Assembly (NCBI GenBank): GCA_027451405.1
Contig: DAIDJM010000065.1
Location: 1-64,000, forward strand
DNA from: Acetobacteraceae bacterium
GTDB lineage: Bacteria; Pseudomonadota; Alphaproteobacteria; Acetobacterales; Acetobacteraceae
DNA length: 64,000 nt
Direction of reading: 5' to 3'
Below, piece by piece: positions 4,891 to 28,554 of this stretch. Each line of letters begins with the position of its first letter. Positions within the stretch are counted from its first letter, which is position 1. Under the pieces are notes generated by a model. The model made no database searches. It was given only the letters and a program-made list of their open reading frames with translations, and was not told the origin of the DNA. A program made the translations under genes and the position numbers.

Positions 4891-4923
4891 GCGGGTCTGG
4901 GGGCGGCAATCAGAACAGGGATC

Positions 4924-5041
4924 CTTCTTTTTCTGAAGAAAAAGAAGCAAAAAGACTTTTGTTCGTTTGGGACGAGGCGGTTGAACAGCTTCGTTCCATA
5001 CGGATAAAGTCTTTTTGGTTCTTTTTCTTCAGAAAAAGAAC
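4924..5041. repeat. AT-rich paired-hairpin element, copy 2
   Basis: The left hairpin (4924-4947) has arms CTTCTTTTTC/GAAAAAGAAG. The right hairpin (5018-5041) has arms GTTCTTTTTC/GAAAAAGAAC. Between them are CAAAAAGACTTTTGTTCG, a GC-rich stem (GGGACGA with TCGTTCC) and GATAAAGTCTTTTTG. It follows the stop of the MmyB-type regulator by 34 bases. The opposite end abuts a copy of the accC 3' tail. Together with copy 3 it forms a tandem duplication with a period of 197 bases. Confidence 0.9.
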
Positions 5042-5080: not shown

Positions 5081-5120
5081 GCGTGGAGCGGCCTTGGGGT
5101 TGGGAGTAAGAAAAGGGATT

Positions 5121-5238
5121 CTTCTTTTTCTGAAGAAAAAGAAGCAAAAAGACTTTTGTTCGTTTGGGACGAGGCGGTTGAACGGTTTCGTTCCATACGG
5201 ATAAAGTCTTTTTGGTTCTTTTTCTTCAGAAAAAGAAC
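5121..5238. repeat. AT-rich paired-hairpin element, copy 3
   Basis: Nearly identical to copy 2, with its left hairpin at 5121-5144 and right hairpin at 5215-5238. The right hairpin ends 5 bases beyond the accC stop codon. It lies between the converging regulator and accC genes, where a bidirectional terminator would be expected. Confidence 0.9.
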
Positions 5239-9727: not shown

Positions 9728-9845
9728 GTTCTTTTTTTGAAAAAAAAGAACCAAAAAAACCCTCTCGCATGAGGACGGTGCCGGTTCAGGCCGCGGTCCT
9801 CCTACGATGAAAGTCTTTTTGCTTCTTTTTCTTCAGAAAAAGAAG
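9728..9845. repeat. AT-rich paired-hairpin element, copy 4
   Basis: The left hairpin (9728-9751) has arms GTTCTTTTTTT/AAAAAAAGAAC. The right hairpin (9822-9845) has arms CTTCTTTTTC/GAAAAAGAAG. Left and right ends are swapped (G...C left, C...G right) relative to copies 2 and 3, with base pairing kept. It starts 4 bases after the UspA stop codon and ends 34 bases before the next gene. Confidence 0.88.
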
Positions 9846-9879
9846 AATCCTTCCTTCTGTCGTCGAAGGAGATCCGCCC

Positions 9880-19854: not shown

Positions 19855-19997
19855 AAAAAAAGAACCAAAAAAACTTTTGGTTTTGAATAGCGGCTGTTTC
19901 GACGGCCTTCCGATGCGAGTCGCATCAGGGTGTTGTTGCAACAGCCCCGTCCAAACAGAGAAAAGTTTTTTTGCTTCTTTTTCTTCAGAAAAAGAAG
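19842..19997. repeat. AT-rich paired-hairpin element, copy 6
   Basis: The left hairpin (19842-19865) has arms GTTCTTTTTTT/AAAAAAAGAAC. The right hairpin (19974-19997) has arms CTTCTTTTTC/GAAAAAGAAG. The spacer is longer than in other copies and holds a further palindrome (GATGCGA-GTC-GCATC). It joins the converging kdsA and carotenoid oxygenase genes; the kdsA stop codon is inside the left hairpin. Confidence 0.88.
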
Positions 19998-20005
19998 AAT
20001 CTCCC

Positions 20006-21454: not shown

Positions 21455-22459
21455 ATGATGGATGGTCTCGACCGCTGGGCAGTACCGGATATTCGGGTTG
21501 CGAGTGTTGTGTCGCGGGGTTCCCTGCTCAAGGGGCGCCAAGGCGTGCCCGGCGGCCTGCAATCGGTGCTGCGGCATGGCGCCGATCCGCGCGGGTCGCG
21601 GGATTCCAGCCCGGCCTTCGATGCGGCGTTCCGGGCGTTGCCGCCGCAGGGCGGGACGATCCGGGTGCCGGCGGGACGCTACCGGCTGGGCTCGCCGCTG
21701 ATGTGGCGGGGGAAAATCGTGCGGCTCGTGGGGGAGGGAGCGCGGGCTAGCCGGTTGATGGCGGCGCATAACGGGTGGGCGCTGGATTATGCCGCCGAGC
21801 GGGCGGCGTGGCTGGGCGTGGGGCTGGAAGTGGGGGCGATCGGCATCGAGGGTTTGGGGCCGCAAGCGGCGGCAGGCGCGGTGCGGGCGCGGTTCGGGCG
21901 GGACGGGGCGGCAGTGCGGCTTTCCGGCATGCGGCTCGGGGCCGGGCTGCATGGCGGTGTCTGGCTCGAGCATGTGCGGGACACGGATCTGACGGACATC
22001 GTCTTTTCGTGGAACGAGGGGGGTGCCTTCGTGACGATCGCCGGCGGGTGCGACGGCGTGTTGCTGCGCCAGGTGCGGCATGAGGGGCGCGGGCCGAGCG
22101 TGGTTTTCACCACGCAGAGGGGCGAGGCGGTGTTCCGCCATGTCGATCTGCTCCGATGCGATTTCCTGACCGATACGGTCGCGGTGCAGGCCGCGCGCGG
22201 CGTGACGGTGGAGGGGCTGTTCGTCGCCGATGGGGTGGTTGCGGCACCGCAGACCGGGATGGCGCTCGATGGGGTGGAGCAAGCCTTGATCTGCGGAACG
22301 CGGTTCGTGGCCACCGGGGCCGGCAACGGGCCCCTCGTGCGGGTGGCGCGGAGCCGGGGGGTGACCTTGTCGGAATGCGGCTTCACGGGCCGGGGTTCAT
22401 GGGTGGAGGGGCCCGCGAAGGTCGTGGCTTGCTTTGCCGCGGGCGGTCCGGGGCCCTGA
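21455..22459 (+). CDS. Right-handed beta-helix (pectate-lyase-like) protein
   Basis: The 334-residue protein contains the pectate lyase superfamily start FDAAFRALPPQGGTIRVPAGRYRL (about residues 55-80), then a series of beta-helix rungs (GVWLEHVRDTDLTDIVFSW, GVLLRQVRHEGRG, GVTVEGLFVADGVV, GVTLSECGFTGRG). Such folds bind or cleave polysaccharides, but no catalytic residue set is evident and no signal peptide is seen. The start is one of two adjacent ATGs (21455 or 21458). The stop codon lies in the first unit of a GGGGCCCTGAGA tandem repeat. The function is unknown; a role on surface or capsular polysaccharide is a guess. Confidence 0.7.
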   Translation: MMDGLDRWAVPDIRVASVVSRGSLLKGRQGVPGGLQSVLRHGADPRGSRDSSPAFDAAFRALPPQGGTIRVPAGRYRLGSPLMWRGKIVRLVGEGARASRLMAAHNGWALDYAAERAAWLGVGLEVGAIGIEGLGPQAAAGAVRARFGRDGAAVRLSGMRLGAGLHGGVWLEHVRDTDLTDIVFSWNEGGAFVTIAGGCDGVLLRQVRHEGRGPSVVFTTQRGEAVFRHVDLLRCDFLTDTVAVQAARGVTVEGLFVADGVVAAPQTGMALDGVEQALICGTRFVATGAGNGPLVRVARSRGVTLSECGFTGRGSWVEGPAKVVACFAAGGPGP

Positions 22460-22507
22460 GATCCGGGGCCCTGAGAGGGGGGCCCTGAGATGGGGGCCCT
22501 AAGATCC
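22450..22507. repeat. Tandem GGGGCCCTGAGA repeats
   Basis: Four imperfect ~14-bp copies (GGGGCCCTGAGATCC, GGGGCCCTGAGAG, GGGGCCCTGAGAT, GGGGCCCTAAGATCC) lie between the converging beta-helix and LOV-kinase genes. The first copy holds the stop codon of the beta-helix gene. Each unit contains the palindrome GGGCCC. Confidence 0.85.
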
Positions 22508-22516
22508 GGGCACCCG

Positions 22517-23764
22517 TCAGGGCGAGGCGATCGGCAGGAGGAGCCGGACCTTGGTTCCCTTGCCGGGGACGCTCTCGATCTCGAGGCGGCCGCCGGATTG
22601 TTCGGCGAACCCATGCACCATGCTGAGCCCGAGCCCGGTGCCGCTCCCCGGCGGCTTGGTGGTGAAAAAAGGCTCGGTGGCGCGGCGCAGAATCTCGGGC
22701 GGCATGCCTTCGCCGCTATCCTCGACCTCGAGCGCCGCGAGACCGTCGCCGGCGCGACGGGTGCACACGCGAAGCGTGCCGCCCGCGGGCATGGCGTCGA
22801 CCGCGTTGCGGACGAGATTGAGGATCGCGAGTTCGAACTGCCCGGAGTCGATACGTATCGGCAATAGATTTCCGTCGAGCGCGATGTCGACCTGCGTGCC
22901 CGGCGTGGCGCTTTGCGTGATCAGGCTGTCCATGCCGCGCACGAGTTCGCTGAGTTCGGCATCGCGCGGGTCATGGAACTGGCGGCGCGAGAAGCTGAGC
23001 ATCTGCTGCGTCAGGCGGCCGGCGCGGTCGGCGGCCCAGGCGGCGCGCTGCAGCTGGGTGGTCTGGCGCTGGCTGCTGGGCTGGGAAGCGGCTTGCTCGA
23101 GGCTGCCCGCGACGATGGTCATGAGGTTGTTGAACTCGTGCGCGACGCCGGCGGCGAGGCTGCCGAGGGCCTCCATGCGCTGGCTGCGCTCAAGCATGGC
23201 TTCGGCCTCGCGGCGCTTGGTGATGTCGATCTGGCTGCCGAAGAAATAGAGCAGGCTGCCATGCGCGTCGAACACCGGGCTCAGAAACAGCGCATTCCAG
23301 AATCCGGTTCCGTTTTTGCGATAGTTGTAGAGTTCGACCGAGATGTCGCGGCGCTCGCGGATCGCCGCGCCGATCGCCGCGACCGCCTCCTGGCCGGTGC
23401 GCTCGCCCTGCAGGAAGCGGCAGTTGCGGCCTATAATTTCTTTCTCAGAATATCCGGTGAGTTCGCAGAACGCAGCGTTCACGAAAACGAGAGGGTTGTC
23501 CGGCGCGTGCGGGTCCGATAGGCACATCGGCATGCGGGTCATTTGCACGGCCGCGAAAAACACGTCGCTGCCCCGGCTGCCTTGGTTGCCGAGGATGACG
23601 TTGCGGCCATCCGCGATGTGGTGTCCGGGGCCGGCGCTGTGCCGCGGTTGCTCGAAATGATCCGCCAAGATGATTGCTGATCCGGTTTGTGCCGGGGCGC
23701 TCCGGGTGCCGGCGTCCCCTGCGGAATATAGGTCCTGCGGCGAGGCACGCAACTCGCGCCGCAA
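22517..23764 (-). CDS. LOV-domain blue-light sensor histidine kinase
   Basis: The 415-residue protein has an N-terminal LOV photosensor (about residues 70-185) with the diagnostic GRNCRFLQG at 112-120. Cys115 would form the light-induced adduct with FMN. The FMN-contacting NYRKNGTGFWN (Asn151, Asn157) and GSQIDIT (Gln178) are also present. A HisKA/HATPase kinase follows, with phospho-accepting His209 in AAGVAHEFNN, N-box LVRNAVDAM, and G-boxes DSGEGMPPE and GTGLGLSMVHG. There are no membrane helices, so it is a soluble light-regulated kinase. A lone receiver-domain protein starts 65 bases away on the opposite strand and is the likely partner. The exact start codon is uncertain. Confidence 0.93.
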   Translation of the reverse strand: MRRELRASPQDLYSAGDAGTRSAPAQTGSAIILADHFEQPRHSAGPGHHIADGRNVILGNQGSRGSDVFFAAVQMTRMPMCLSDPHAPDNPLVFVNAAFCELTGYSEKEIIGRNCRFLQGERTGQEAVAAIGAAIRERRDISVELYNYRKNGTGFWNALFLSPVFDAHGSLLYFFGSQIDITKRREAEAMLERSQRMEALGSLAAGVAHEFNNLMTIVAGSLEQAASQPSSQRQTTQLQRAAWAADRAGRLTQQMLSFSRRQFHDPRDAELSELVRGMDSLITQSATPGTQVDIALDGNLLPIRIDSGQFELAILNLVRNAVDAMPAGGTLRVCTRRAGDGLAALEVEDSGEGMPPEILRRATEPFFTTKPPGSGTGLGLSMVHGFAEQSGGRLEIESVPGKGTKVRLLLPIASP

Positions 23765-23829
23765 CCGCGCCTTGTGAGGCTGGGCGGCGGCGCTTTGGTG
23801 CGCAGATATCGAAATTCACAAGGCAGTGA

Positions 23830-24207
23830 GTGGGTGATTTGAGTTCGAAGCGAATTCTGGTGGTCGAGGATGAGGATTTGATCCGCCGGATACTCACGGA
23901 AACGTTAGCCGACGAGGGTTATCTGGTGGTCGAGGCGAGCACGGCGGATGAAGCCGCTGAACTGCTCGTCAAAGCGCAGGACGGGTTTGCCGCGGTGATC
24001 ACCGACATCCATACGCCCGGCATGCGCGACGGGATCGAGGTCGGGCGTTGCGCGCACGAGCAGGACCCCGACATCGCGGTGATCTATGTGACGGGAAGGC
24101 CGGATGCGATGCAGGCGGTCGGTGGTCTCGCGCCGAAAGATGCCTTCCTGCGCAAGCCCTATCTGCCGTCGCAGATTCTGGCCCTGCTGCGCACGCTCGA
24201 TCGCTAG
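23830..24207 (+). CDS. Single-domain response regulator, likely partner of the LOV kinase
   Basis: The 125-residue CheY-like receiver has the acidic pocket VVEDED, phospho-acceptor Asp59 in ITDIHTPGM, Thr in YVTGRP and Lys in RKPYLPSQ. It has no output domain, so it would act through protein contacts or a phosphorelay. It is divergent from the LOV kinase. This kind of receiver paired with a soluble hybrid-type kinase is common in alphaproteobacterial general-stress or light signalling. The start is GTG at 23830; TTG at 23839 is an alternative. Confidence 0.9.
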   Translation: MGDLSSKRILVVEDEDLIRRILTETLADEGYLVVEASTADEAAELLVKAQDGFAAVITDIHTPGMRDGIEVGRCAHEQDPDIAVIYVTGRPDAMQAVGGLAPKDAFLRKPYLPSQILALLRTLDR

Positions 24208-24554: not shown

Positions 24555-24802
24555 CGGGCAGTTCCTTTGTAAGAATGACTTACTCTCACCGCGCCTGTTC
24601 GGCGGCGCGGCTGAGGCTTCGATAGGGGCCTGGGCTTACGGAAAGCTGAGAGGAATAAGAAAATTTTGTGGCATCGCGATCGTCTAATATTTGTTGGATC
24701 GCAACATAATAATGATGCTATTGGAATGGAATGGCCGCCGGCCAGGGGCGGGCAGCGATGCCGCGCTGGCCGGGGGGAGCCGGCCGGGCTAATCTCCACC
24801 CC

Positions 24803-27049
24803 GTGAACGCGCTGCCGCCCCTCGTTCTGCGCCGGTCCCGCACGCGCCGCCTCGTGGACATCCTGCTCGGGAAGCTGGCGACGCTGGCGCTGGCCGCGAT
24901 CGCCGCCGTGCTCGGCATCGGCAGCTTCGTGCTGATGTCGCATGGGGCGCCGCTCACCATCCGCCCCAATCTCGTCACCGCCCTCGTGGTGACCAACGCG
25001 GCGGTGCTGCTGCTGCTCGGGGCCTCGCTCGCCGGGCGGCTCACCCAGGTATGGGTCGAGCGAAGGCGGGGCTCGGCCGGATCGCGGCTGCATATCCGGC
25101 TGGTGCTGCTGTTCGCGGTGGTCGCGGTGATCCCGACCATTCTGGTCGGCGTGTTCGCGACCGCCTGGTTCAGCCTGGGCATCCAGGCCTGGTTCAACGA
25201 CCGGGTGCGGACCGCGCTGCAGGAAGGGTTGCAGGCGAGCCAGGGCTACCTCGCGGAGCACCGGGACGCGATCAAGACCGATGCGCTGGAGCTCAAGGCC
25301 GAGTTCGAGCGCGCCGGCCTCATGCTGCTCGACGATCCGGCGGCCTTCCAGCAGTTGCTCTCGACGCAGACGACGATCCGCGGGCTCGACGAGGCGATGA
25401 TCTACGATCCGAGCACCGGCAATGTGGTGGCGAGCGCCGGGCTGTTCGCCGGTTCCGGGCCGCCGCAGGTGGGGCAGGCAGCGGTCGAGGCGGCGCGGCA
25501 GGGCGAGGTCCCGGTGCTCGGGACGGCCTCGGAGACCGAGGTGCGGGCACTCGTCTCGCTCGCGACCACGCCGCCGCTGCTGCTGCTGATCGAGCGGCCG
25601 GTCGATCCGAGCATCCTTCAGCATATGCGGCGGACGGAGGACGCGGTCGCCGAATATGACCGGCTGGATCAGAACCGGTCGGGCCTGCAGGTGACGTTCG
25701 CGCTGATCTTCGCGCTGGTGGCGCTGCTGGTGCTGGCGGCCGCGGTGCTGATCGGGCTCGTGCTCGCGACCCAGATCGCGCGGCCGATCGGCTGGCTGAT
25801 CGAGGCGGCCGAGCGGGTGCGGGCGGGCGATCTCGCGGTGCAGGTGCCGGAGATCGAGAGCGGGGACGAGCTGGCCGGTCTCTCCCGCGCGTTCAACCGG
25901 ATGACCGGGCAGCTCGCGGCGCAGCGGGGCGAGCTGATGGATGCCTACCGGCAGATCGACGAGCGGCGGCGCTTCACCGAGACGGTGCTGTCGGGCGTCT
26001 CGGCGGGGGTGATCGGGCTCGACGGCGAAGGGCGGATCGAGCTGCCGAACCGGACGGCCGGGGAATTGCTCGGGCGCGATCTGATCGCCTCGATCGGCGG
26101 ACGGCTATCGGTGCTGGTGCCGGAGTTCGCGCCGCTGCTCGAGGCGGCCTCGGCGGCGCCCGAGCGGCCGAGCGCGGGGGAAGTCACGGTGGGGCAGGCG
26201 CGGCGGCAGCGCGTGCTCCTGGTGCGGATCGGGGCGGAGATCGCGGGCGGGCGGGTCGCGGGCTTCGTCGTGACGTTCGACGACATCACCGAGCTGCAAT
26301 CAGCGCAGCGCAAGGCGGCCTGGGCCGACGTAGCGCGGCGGATCGCGCACGAGATCAAAAATCCGCTCACGCCCATTCAGCTTTCGGCGGAGCGGCTGAA
26401 GCGGCGGTTCGCGCGGGAGATCACGTCCGATCCGGAGACGTTCCGGCAATGCGCGGACACGATCGTGCGGCATGTCGCCGATATCGGGCGCATGGTGGAT
26501 GAGTTCTCGGCCTTCGCGCGCATGCCGATGCCGGTGATGCAGCGCGAGGATGTGGGGCGGATCGTGCGCGAGGCGCTGGTGCTGCAGAGGAGCGCGCGGC
26601 CGGAGATCGCCTGGACCACCGACATTCCCGAGCGGGGGCCGATCGCGCGGGTGGACCGGCGGCTGCTTGGGCAGGCGCTCACCAACCTGCTGCAGAACGC
26701 GGCGGACGCGATCGCCATGCGGCCGGCGCCGGCCGAGGCCGGGCAGGCCGAGGCGACGATGCCGATGGGTCATATCGACGTGTCGGTCGCCGAGTCCGAG
26801 GGGCAGGTTCGCATCACTGTGGCCGATGACGGGGTCGGACTGCCACCCGACCGGGCGCGGCTTACCGAGCCCTATGTCACTCACAAGCCGAAAGGAACCG
26901 GACTTGGGCTTGCCATTGTGAAGAAGATCATGGAGGACCATGGCGGATCGGTCACACTGGACGATCGCGCGAGCCACAGTGGGGCGGCCTCCGGCGCGGT
27001 CGCGACGTTGACCCTGCCGCTGATGGAAGCAGGTGCGGATGGCGCATGA
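24803..27049 (+). CDS. ntrY: NtrY-type nitrogen/redox sensor histidine kinase
   Basis: NtrY is the membrane kinase of the NtrYX system that links nitrogen or redox state to gene expression. The protein has three N-terminal transmembrane helices, a large extracytoplasmic loop, and a fourth helix near residue 300. HAMP (RPIGWLIEAAERVRAGDL) and PAS domains follow, then the HisKA motif ARRIAHEIKNPLTPIQ with His516. The ATPase domain has NLLQNAADAI and GTGLGLAIVKKI. GTG at 24803 (VNALPPLVL) is preferred because the upstream ATG at 24731 adds residues with no family match and no ribosome site. It overlaps ntrX slightly, so the pair is coupled. Confidence 0.95.
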   Translation: MNALPPLVLRRSRTRRLVDILLGKLATLALAAIAAVLGIGSFVLMSHGAPLTIRPNLVTALVVTNAAVLLLLGASLAGRLTQVWVERRRGSAGSRLHIRLVLLFAVVAVIPTILVGVFATAWFSLGIQAWFNDRVRTALQEGLQASQGYLAEHRDAIKTDALELKAEFERAGLMLLDDPAAFQQLLSTQTTIRGLDEAMIYDPSTGNVVASAGLFAGSGPPQVGQAAVEAARQGEVPVLGTASETEVRALVSLATTPPLLLLIERPVDPSILQHMRRTEDAVAEYDRLDQNRSGLQVTFALIFALVALLVLAAAVLIGLVLATQIARPIGWLIEAAERVRAGDLAVQVPEIESGDELAGLSRAFNRMTGQLAAQRGELMDAYRQIDERRRFTETVLSGVSAGVIGLDGEGRIELPNRTAGELLGRDLIASIGGRLSVLVPEFAPLLEAASAAPERPSAGEVTVGQARRQRVLLVRIGAEIAGGRVAGFVVTFDDITELQSAQRKAAWADVARRIAHEIKNPLTPIQLSAERLKRRFAREITSDPETFRQCADTIVRHVADIGRMVDEFSAFARMPMPVMQREDVGRIVREALVLQRSARPEIAWTTDIPERGPIARVDRRLLGQALTNLLQNAADAIAMRPAPAEAGQAEATMPMGHIDVSVAESEGQVRITVADDGVGLPPDRARLTEPYVTHKPKGTGLGLAIVKKIMEDHGGSVTLDDRASHSGAASGAVATLTLPLMEAGADGA

Positions 27050-28436
27050 GATTCTGATCGTCGACGACGAGCCCGATATCCGCCTGCTGATCGACGGGCT
27101 GCTCAAGGATGAGGGGTTCGACACGCGGCAGGCGGGGGATTCGGACGCGGCGATCGCGGCGTTCCGCGCGCGGCGGCCGTCGCTGGTGATCCTCGATGTG
27201 TGGCTGCAGGGGTCGCGGCTGGACGGGATCGGCATCCTCAAGGCGCTGCATCGCGAGGAGCCGCATGTGCCCGTGGTGATGATCTCGGGGCACGGCACGA
27301 TCGAGATGGCGGTGACCGCGATCCAGATCGGGGCCTACGATTTCCTGGAAAAGCCGTTCCAGTCCGACCGGCTGCTGCTGGTGGTGCGGCGGGCACTCGA
27401 GGCGGCGCGGCTGCGGGCGGAGAATGCCGAGCTGCGGCTGCGGGCCGGGCCCGAGACCGTGCTCACCGGGTCGAGCCCGGCGGTGCATCAGGTGCGCAAC
27501 CAGATCGAGCGGGTGGCGCCGACCGGGTCGCGGGTGCTGATCACGGGACCCGCGGGAAGCGGCAAGGAAGTGGCGGCGCGCATGATCCATGCGCGGTCGC
27601 GGCGGGCGGAAGGGCCGTTCGTGGTGCTGAATTGCGCGACGCTCAATCCGGGCCGTTTCGAGGAGGAATTGTTCGGCGTCGAGGCGGGCAACGATCCGGC
27701 GTCCGCCCCGCGCCGGGCCGGCGTGCTCGAGCGGGCGCACACGGGCACGCTGCTGCTCGACGAGGTTTCCGACATGCCGCTCGAGACGCAGGGCAAGATC
27801 GTGCGCGCGCTGCAGGATCAGACGTTCGAGCGGATCGGCGGCACGAGCCGGGTGAAGGTGGATGTGCGGGTGCTGGCGACCACCAACCGCGATCTGCAGG
27901 CGGAGATCGCGGCGGGGCGGTTCCGGGAGGATCTCTATTACCGGCTGGCGGTGGTGCCGCTGAAAATCCCGAGCCTGAAGGAACGGCGCGACGACGTTCC
28001 GGAACTGGCACGGTATTTTCTCGCGCGCTCGCGCGAGGTTTCCGGCATGCCGGGGCGGGAGCTTTCGGCGGACGCGATGACCGCGCTGCAGGCTTACGAA
28101 TGGCCCGGGAACGTGCGGCAACTGCGCAATCTGATGGATTGGCTGCTCATCATGGCACCGGGCGGGCCGAGCGAGCCGATCCGGGCGGACATGCTGCCGC
28201 CGGAAATCGGGCAGGGTGCGCCGGCGCTGCTGAATTTCGATCCGACCGCGGACGTGATGGGGCTGCCCCTGCGCGAGGCGCGGGATTTGTTCGAGACGCA
28301 GTATCTGCAGGCCCAGTTGCTGCGGTTCGGGGGGAATATCTCGCGGACCGCCGGGTTCGTGGGGATGGAGCGGAGCGCGCTGCACCGGAAGCTCAAGCAG
28401 CTTGGGGTCAATTCGGAGGATCGGGTGCCGCAATAG
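27039..28436 (+). CDS. ntrX: NtrX-type response regulator (AAA+ domain, Fis-type HTH)
   Basis: The protein has a receiver domain with Asp53 (LVILDVWLQGS), a central AAA+ domain with Walker A GPAGSGKE and Walker B LLLDEVSDMP, and a C-terminal Fis helix-turn-helix (NISRTAGFVGMERSALHRKL). The sigma-54 contact loop that normally reads GAFTGA is replaced by GNDPASAPRR, so it may regulate sigma-70 promoters rather than activate sigma-54. Loss of GAFTGA is known in several alphaproteobacterial NtrX proteins. ATG at 27039 is preferred over GTG at 27033; both overlap the ntrY end. Hairpin element copy 7 follows 13 bases after the stop. Confidence 0.95.
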   Translation: MAHEILIVDDEPDIRLLIDGLLKDEGFDTRQAGDSDAAIAAFRARRPSLVILDVWLQGSRLDGIGILKALHREEPHVPVVMISGHGTIEMAVTAIQIGAYDFLEKPFQSDRLLLVVRRALEAARLRAENAELRLRAGPETVLTGSSPAVHQVRNQIERVAPTGSRVLITGPAGSGKEVAARMIHARSRRAEGPFVVLNCATLNPGRFEEELFGVEAGNDPASAPRRAGVLERAHTGTLLLDEVSDMPLETQGKIVRALQDQTFERIGGTSRVKVDVRVLATTNRDLQAEIAAGRFREDLYYRLAVVPLKIPSLKERRDDVPELARYFLARSREVSGMPGRELSADAMTALQAYEWPGNVRQLRNLMDWLLIMAPGGPSEPIRADMLPPEIGQGAPALLNFDPTADVMGLPLREARDLFETQYLQAQLLRFGGNISRTAGFVGMERSALHRKLKQLGVNSEDRVPQ

Positions 28437-28449
28437 AAGGCAAGGGTTT

Positions 28450-28554
28450 CTTCTTTTTCTGAAGAAAAAGAAGCAAAAAGACTTCTGTCCGGATGAGACC
28501 GAGACGTTTCTCCATCTCGTCTCATGCGTGAGAGTTTGTTTTCAAAAAAAGAAC
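28450..28554. repeat. AT-rich paired-hairpin element, copy 7
   Basis: The left hairpin (28450-28473) has arms CTTCTTTTTC/GAAAAAGAAG. The right half (28534-28554) is decayed (GTTTGTTTTC...AAAAAGAAC). It lies between the co-directional ntrX and dat genes. The AAAAGG just after it appears to serve as ribosome binding site for dat. Confidence 0.8.

Follow-up and report, generated by a model that had tools for sequence, protein, structure and literature searches.

A LOV histidine kinase and a divergently encoded single-domain receiver in Acetobacteraceae: a probable receiver swap from a hybrid photoreceptor

In a 3.37-Mb draft genome of an Acetobacteraceae bacterium (97.7 percent complete), a gene for a LOV histidine kinase lies head to head with a gene for a lone receiver. 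Do the two proteins work together, and, if so, where did the receiver come from? To answer this, we analyzed the 64,000-nucleotide stretch that carries both genes (the window) together with related loci from other genomes. LOV two-component systems are already known, and what is new here is that a receiver appears to have been swapped, with intermediates still in decay. Two-component proteins, whether split or fused, are mostly seen as end states only. At a probability of about 0.68, we read the locus as a two-gene blue-light two-component module derived from a Xac-LOV-type hybrid that lost its built-in receiver and had it replaced by an unrelated stand-alone one. Both proteins are intact, the pair is recurrent, it is exclusive of an intact built-in receiver, and the two kinds of receiver form distinct clades. 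Flavin binding, light response, phosphotransfer, functional replacement, and output are the parts of this reading that we infer.

The kinase and its neighboring receiver

The kinase is encoded on the minus strand at 22517..23668 and the receiver on the plus strand at 23830..24207 (125 aa, GTG start). A sequence-only reading of the locus had described a LOV kinase and a lone receiver on opposite strands, and both open reading frames are present there and intact. The 65-base spacing that it gave needs revision. The kinase frame is open to a TTG at 23764, which in its longest form would give 415 aa (22517-23764, minus strand). In an N-terminus comparison, 8 of 11 split-clade relatives had a start codon at -50 to -53 from a DP motif, a position that corresponds to TTG 23668 in the window. 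Because this position is conserved, we assigned 383 aa to the kinase and 161 bp to the upstream region shared by the two divergent genes (23669..23829). With TTG 23668 as the probable start, the adduct cysteine and the phospho-histidine become Cys83 and H177; the numbers Cys115, N147, N157, Q178, and H209 used below are those of the 415-aa frame. As a separate observation, three near-copies of GGGGCCCTGAGATCCGGGGCC occupy 22450-22513, between a pectate-lyase-like gene and the end of the kinase gene.

A Pfam search of the kinase frame returned LOV, HisKA, and HATPase domains and no others. The LOV (PAS) photosensor domain (23201..23563, minus strand) scored 78.5 bits against PAS_9, above the Pfam cut-off. 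It contains the motif GRNCRFLQG, which fits the LOV pattern GxNCRFLQ, with the adduct cysteine at residue 115 (codon 23420-23422) and the Asn/Asn/Gln flavin contacts at N147, N157, and Q178. The motif with its cysteine and the flavin contacts had been named in the sequence-only reading and all are present; the number of the cysteine changes with the conserved start. The HisKA dimerization and phosphotransfer domain (22979..23167, minus strand; PF00512, 34.1 bits, cut-off 26.9) carries HEFNNLM with the phospho-histidine H209 (codon 23138-23140). It is followed by a HATPase_c catalytic domain (22529..22846, minus strand; PF02518, 84.7 bits) with intact N, G1, F, and G2 boxes and no receiver after it. 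The only site encoding NCRFLQ in the entire 3.37-Mb genome is the one in this kinase, and a reversed-pattern control gave none. In the predicted structure (mean pLDDT 80.4, pTM 0.48), confidence was high over the LOV core (pLDDT mostly 90-97) and the ATPase domain and lower in the linker and a portion of the HisKA helices, and residues 1-34 were disordered. The LOV part of the model superposed on the Brucella LOV domain 6ph2 at 0.8-0.9 A rmsd over 118 columns. Since the LOV kinase is intact, light sensing is its expected function, and the protein would bind flavin and respond to light. Ahead of the LOV core by 20-30 residues, we also noted a motif common to several split-clade kinases, GHHxxxGRN[VI][IV] (window about 23590-23630, minus strand), at the place of which many hybrids carry GxHHWxxAxI.

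The receiver matched Response_reg (PF00072) at 56.5 bits, above the cut-off, and has every residue of a functional receiver: the acidic pair E13/D14, the phospho-aspartate D59 (codon 24004-24006), T88, and K109. Its description as a lone receiver with an intact Asp59 thus stands. We take these residues, like Cys115, N147, N157, Q178, H209, and the N/G1/F/G2 boxes of the kinase, to be those of photochemistry and phosphotransfer. At the variable positions of the active site, the window receiver has His at D+2, Arg at T+2 (R90), and Phe at K-3. Its best named match was CpdR (NF046022), at 59.7 bits and under the cut-off of 180. We also considered a FATGUY hub receiver, a group (MrrA, SdrG, Sma0114) that it resembles as a stand-alone receiver of alphaproteobacteria. 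However, the motif Tyr that follows T-G in the beta4 loop is R90 here, and Arg was found at that position in all 17 paired receivers described below, while Tyr or Phe at that place is a trait of the receivers built into the hybrids. In PMC9981736, FATGUY-type receivers, with Tyr at that position, are tied to phosphate shuttling.

A hybrid kinase family without its receiver

Among named models, the kinase best matched PRK13557, at 439.1 bits against a cut-off of 631. The match covers profile positions 25-395 of 540, and the frame ends 12 residues past the kinase core, leaving no room for the C-terminal receiver of this family. For comparison, an intact hybrid of the family (L103) scored 769.6 bits and a Massilia hybrid (L017) 622.6 bits, just under the cut-off. 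Xac-LOV itself has 540 aa, with LOV at 39-142, the kinase at 167-396, and the receiver at 417-533, as given in PMC3366940. The window kinase therefore corresponds to a Xac-LOV-type photoreceptor without its receiver. It has the LOV and HisKA/HATPase domains in the same order as the Xac-LOV hybrids of Xanthomonas and Pseudomonas syringae (PRK13557/NF010076), but those carry a C-terminal receiver, whereas here the receiver is encoded separately and is of another type. The best full-length sequence and fold matches, including the best matches of the model in the PDB, were the engineered LOV kinases YF1 and SB2F1 (4gcz, 8a3u, 8a6x), at about 31 percent identity. These, unlike the window kinase, are chimeras with a FixL kinase half, and their partner is FixJ (PMC4682037). 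Caulobacter LovK-LovR offers another likeness, a LOV kinase with a cognate single-domain receiver in the adjoining gene. However, those genes form an operon and not a divergent pair, and a LovK-type assignment failed, as the window kinase reached 180.3 bits against the 450 required by NF052306 (match 23-178 of 334).

We searched for the kinase first in 200 and later in 397 genomes of the family, as well as in 385 of the class. With extra loci from a collection scan and by coordinates, this gave 102 non-redundant loci, numbered L. A locus was called paired if a divergent receiver gene lay within 500 bp of the kinase. This was so in 17 of the 102, of which the window's family accounts for 16, and the arrangement was kept across genera. 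Recurrence of the same divergent pair in so many related loci excludes chance, and the proposal that the receiver is the partner of the kinase holds up as a real candidate. The distance from kinase match to receiver domain was 136-274 bp in 16 of the 17 pairs and 407 bp in the other. Outside the family the kinase is rare: only four of the 385 class genomes were out-of-family and had a match at E 1e-70 or better, all in open frames of at least 583 aa, and one of these (L169) is without a LOV motif. The one pair outside the class, L014, is in a gammaproteobacterial record (Coralloluteibacterium stylophorae) and represents either transfer of the pair or contamination.

Separate and built-in receivers exclude one another. 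Seventeen loci had a divergent receiver, 73 had an intact C-terminal receiver, 12 had neither, and none had both. No intact built-in receiver was found in the 16 paired kinases with an assessable end, 12 of which stop after the ATPase domain and four of which retain a damaged remnant. (For L212, one of the 17 pairs, and for L213, the contig ends where a built-in receiver would be judged.) Conversely, a divergent receiver within 500 bp was absent from all 73 kinases whose built-in receiver is intact, with L153 scanned over 455 bp upstream only. The exclusion has a Fisher's exact p of 9.7e-12, a value that ignores phylogeny although the loci are related. An independent-pairs test, with a kinase tree that left out the partial kinases L210, L211, L212, and L213 and the non-LOV match L169, had only four pairs and cannot reach significance; on average the traits moved together in one. 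In an outgroup-rooted tree, few events suffice to explain the receiver-less group, and the AU test did not reject one origin for the whole of it (p 0.40), so that the association rests on few independent events. The four remnants, each alongside an intact divergent receiver, are in different stages of decay. The built-in receiver of L109 is truncated, with a deletion in the middle and Lys changed to Arg; that of L111 has Asp changed to Glu; in L114 the Asp is missing; and L211 ends ahead of the Asp. Such differently damaged remnants suggest repeated decay after the separate receiver had been acquired.

The receiver beside the kinase may also be an independent gene that shares its promoter region, with the kinase signaling mainly to another response regulator or to ChpT. 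This would fit the window's own kinase clade, where 9 of 18 members lack an adjoining receiver, which means that adjacency is not obligatory. It would also fit the presence of the same receiver type away from LOV kinases; 20 of 22 such receivers had no kinase match in their flanks (about 1.5 kb, or less where the contig ended), the exceptions being L138 and L140. In addition, the genome encodes a ChpT-like protein (contig C41; 27.7 bits, cut-off 22.9). However, intact built-in receivers are excluded where the pair occurs, and when flanks were compared all against all for 19 loci, including the window, the kinase and the receiver were the only genes shared between otherwise unrelated neighborhoods. 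We consider an independent neighbor unlikely. Across 15 pairs, kinase and receiver distances were correlated (Mantel r 0.61, p 0.0001), a value confounded by organism phylogeny, which alone could produce it.

Two types of receiver

The separate and the built-in receivers differ at three positions of the active site. At T+2, all 73 intact built-in receivers have Tyr or Phe, whereas all 17 separate ones have Arg. At D+2, the built-in receivers have I, L, or V (69 of 73) or A or S (the other four), and the separate ones have His, Asn, or Gln in every case. At K-3, no built-in receiver has Phe or Tyr, while Phe is found in 11 of the 17 separate ones, the window's among them. A tree of 51 receivers (17 paired, 22 unpaired with a LOV kinase, and 12 of the 73 built-in) set the built-in receivers apart by a branch with 100/100 support. 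Together, these differences and the branch rule out a broken-off origin. On the other side of the branch, paired and LOV-unpaired receivers were intermixed, and the nearest relatives of the window receiver were unpaired receivers of other genomes and not those of the nearest kin of its kinase. Strict co-inheritance of kinase and receiver is, for this reason, not supported.

With two genes in hand that recur together and a receiver of foreign type, we return to the two-component module. Most likely, the kinase would phosphorylate and dephosphorylate the separate receiver under blue light, as the result of a receiver swap. Blue light would form a flavin-cysteine adduct in the LOV domain, and the adduct would shift the autokinase/phosphatase balance of the HisKA kinase. 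The kinase would then exchange phosphate with the divergently transcribed single-domain receiver, which may in turn act through protein contact. As to origin, a LOV-HK-receiver hybrid would have lost its built-in receiver, and a stand-alone receiver of a different active-site type would have taken over. We infer that the swap replaced a relay-type receiver by a short-lived output or sink type; hydrophilic residues at D+2 and T+2 are predicted to speed dephosphorylation, according to PMC8510515.

Stated in full, the proposal is of a natural swap in Acetobacteraceae from a built-in relay type (hydrophobic D+2, Tyr at T+2, no aromatic at K-3) to a separate output or sink type (polar D+2, Arg at T+2, often Phe at K-3). 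L109, L111, L114, and L211 would be living intermediates that still carry a decaying built-in receiver, and the module would have outlived loss of the light-reactive cysteine in one lineage. We give this fuller account even odds. Within this family the photoreceptor kinase is found in a fused, a decaying, and a split form side by side, and the separate receiver belongs to another lineage. A change of partner by a kinase without loss of signal poses a direct question for the bench, namely whether the intermediates phosphorylate both receivers. The locus also presents a testable light pathway in environmental Acetobacteraceae, and its natural LOV kinase, compact and with a partner that is small, may be of use in optogenetics. 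The literature searched, with subscription papers mostly outside it, covers LovK/LovR and LOV-HK-RR hybrids; it held no account of a split LOV kinase with a separate receiver, which is weak evidence of novelty, and no paper that brings together a LOV domain and Acetobacteraceae.

Possible output, input, and genome context

Could the pair, like LovK and LovR, drain phosphate and so dampen the general stress response under PhyR, the kinase serving chiefly as a phosphatase of the receiver? PhyR is encoded in the genome (contig C43; 265.8 bits, cut-off 240) beside a frame that we read by eye as an ECF sigma factor, LovK-LovR has been demonstrated to be such a sink (PMC5964349), and the His and Arg at D+2 and T+2 are of the kind predicted to hasten dephosphorylation. 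However, the kinase is of the HisKA type and falls outside the LovK family (180 of 450 bits for NF052306). LovKR is an operon controlled by SigT, whereas here the genes are divergent and the window's 161-bp intergenic region has neither an EcfG-type nor a TTGAC/TA...T promoter pattern. The strict EcfG pattern was found in one of the 17 pair intergenic regions (L016). We regard a PhyR drain as improbable. A link of the module to stress control or to a CckA-ChpT relay is possible but unsupported. No Hpt domain (PF01627) was found in the window genome (97.7 percent complete), and hence no CheA P1 domain either. This genome is unusual in that respect, as Hpt was present in 30 of 34 genomes overall. 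We also considered loss of Hpt as the cause of receiver loss, but Hpt occurs in 12 of the 14 genomes compared that carry a pair and in 18 of the 20 that carry a hybrid, and there is thus no association.

On the input side, the adduct cysteine is replaced in L015, L016, L152, and L209 (by Leu, Met, Ser, and Ser, respectively). L015 and L016, two of the 102 loci, keep the pair and also have Cys in place of the second flavin-contact Asn; in this lineage, by comparison with Cys-less LOV kinases that can signal via flavin reduction (PMC4682037), the sensor has probably shifted to a redox input or to a weaker response to light. That the sensor would report flavin redox state as much as light in general, so that light is not the main input, is the least likely of the alternatives, since the window protein retains the cysteine and all flavin contacts and the cysteine position is kept in 95 of 102 loci.

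As to the output of the module, the sequence-only reading had noted a nearby carotenoid oxygenase and considered blue-light control of stress, attachment, or pigments plausible, which may or may not hold. An oppositely oriented gene separates the oxygenase from the kinase, and no flanking gene of the window, this oxygenase among them, was found again next to the pair in more than one of the 18 other loci. Because no neighbor is conserved, neither the carotenoid oxygenase nor any other flanking gene can serve as a clue to output. Further shared flank genes were confined to near relatives, mainly L201, L205, L211, L217, and L218. A plasmid search returned only distant relatives, 42-49 percent identical among the protein matches listed, and no close DNA match (one 61-base piece).

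Two further features of the window were noted. An NtrY-NtrX nitrogen two-component pair lies close downstream of the receiver, at 24731-28436 (NtrX 685.9 bits, cut-off 600). The near-perfect palindrome TTCTTTTTCTTCAGAAAAAGAA is found at six sites (858-882, 4922-4946, 5119-5143, 9823-9847, 19975-19999, and 28448-28472), where 0 were expected in 100 shuffles. The copies at 19975 and 28448 are beside gene ends, and the palindrome is possibly a dispersed repeat or a terminator-like element.
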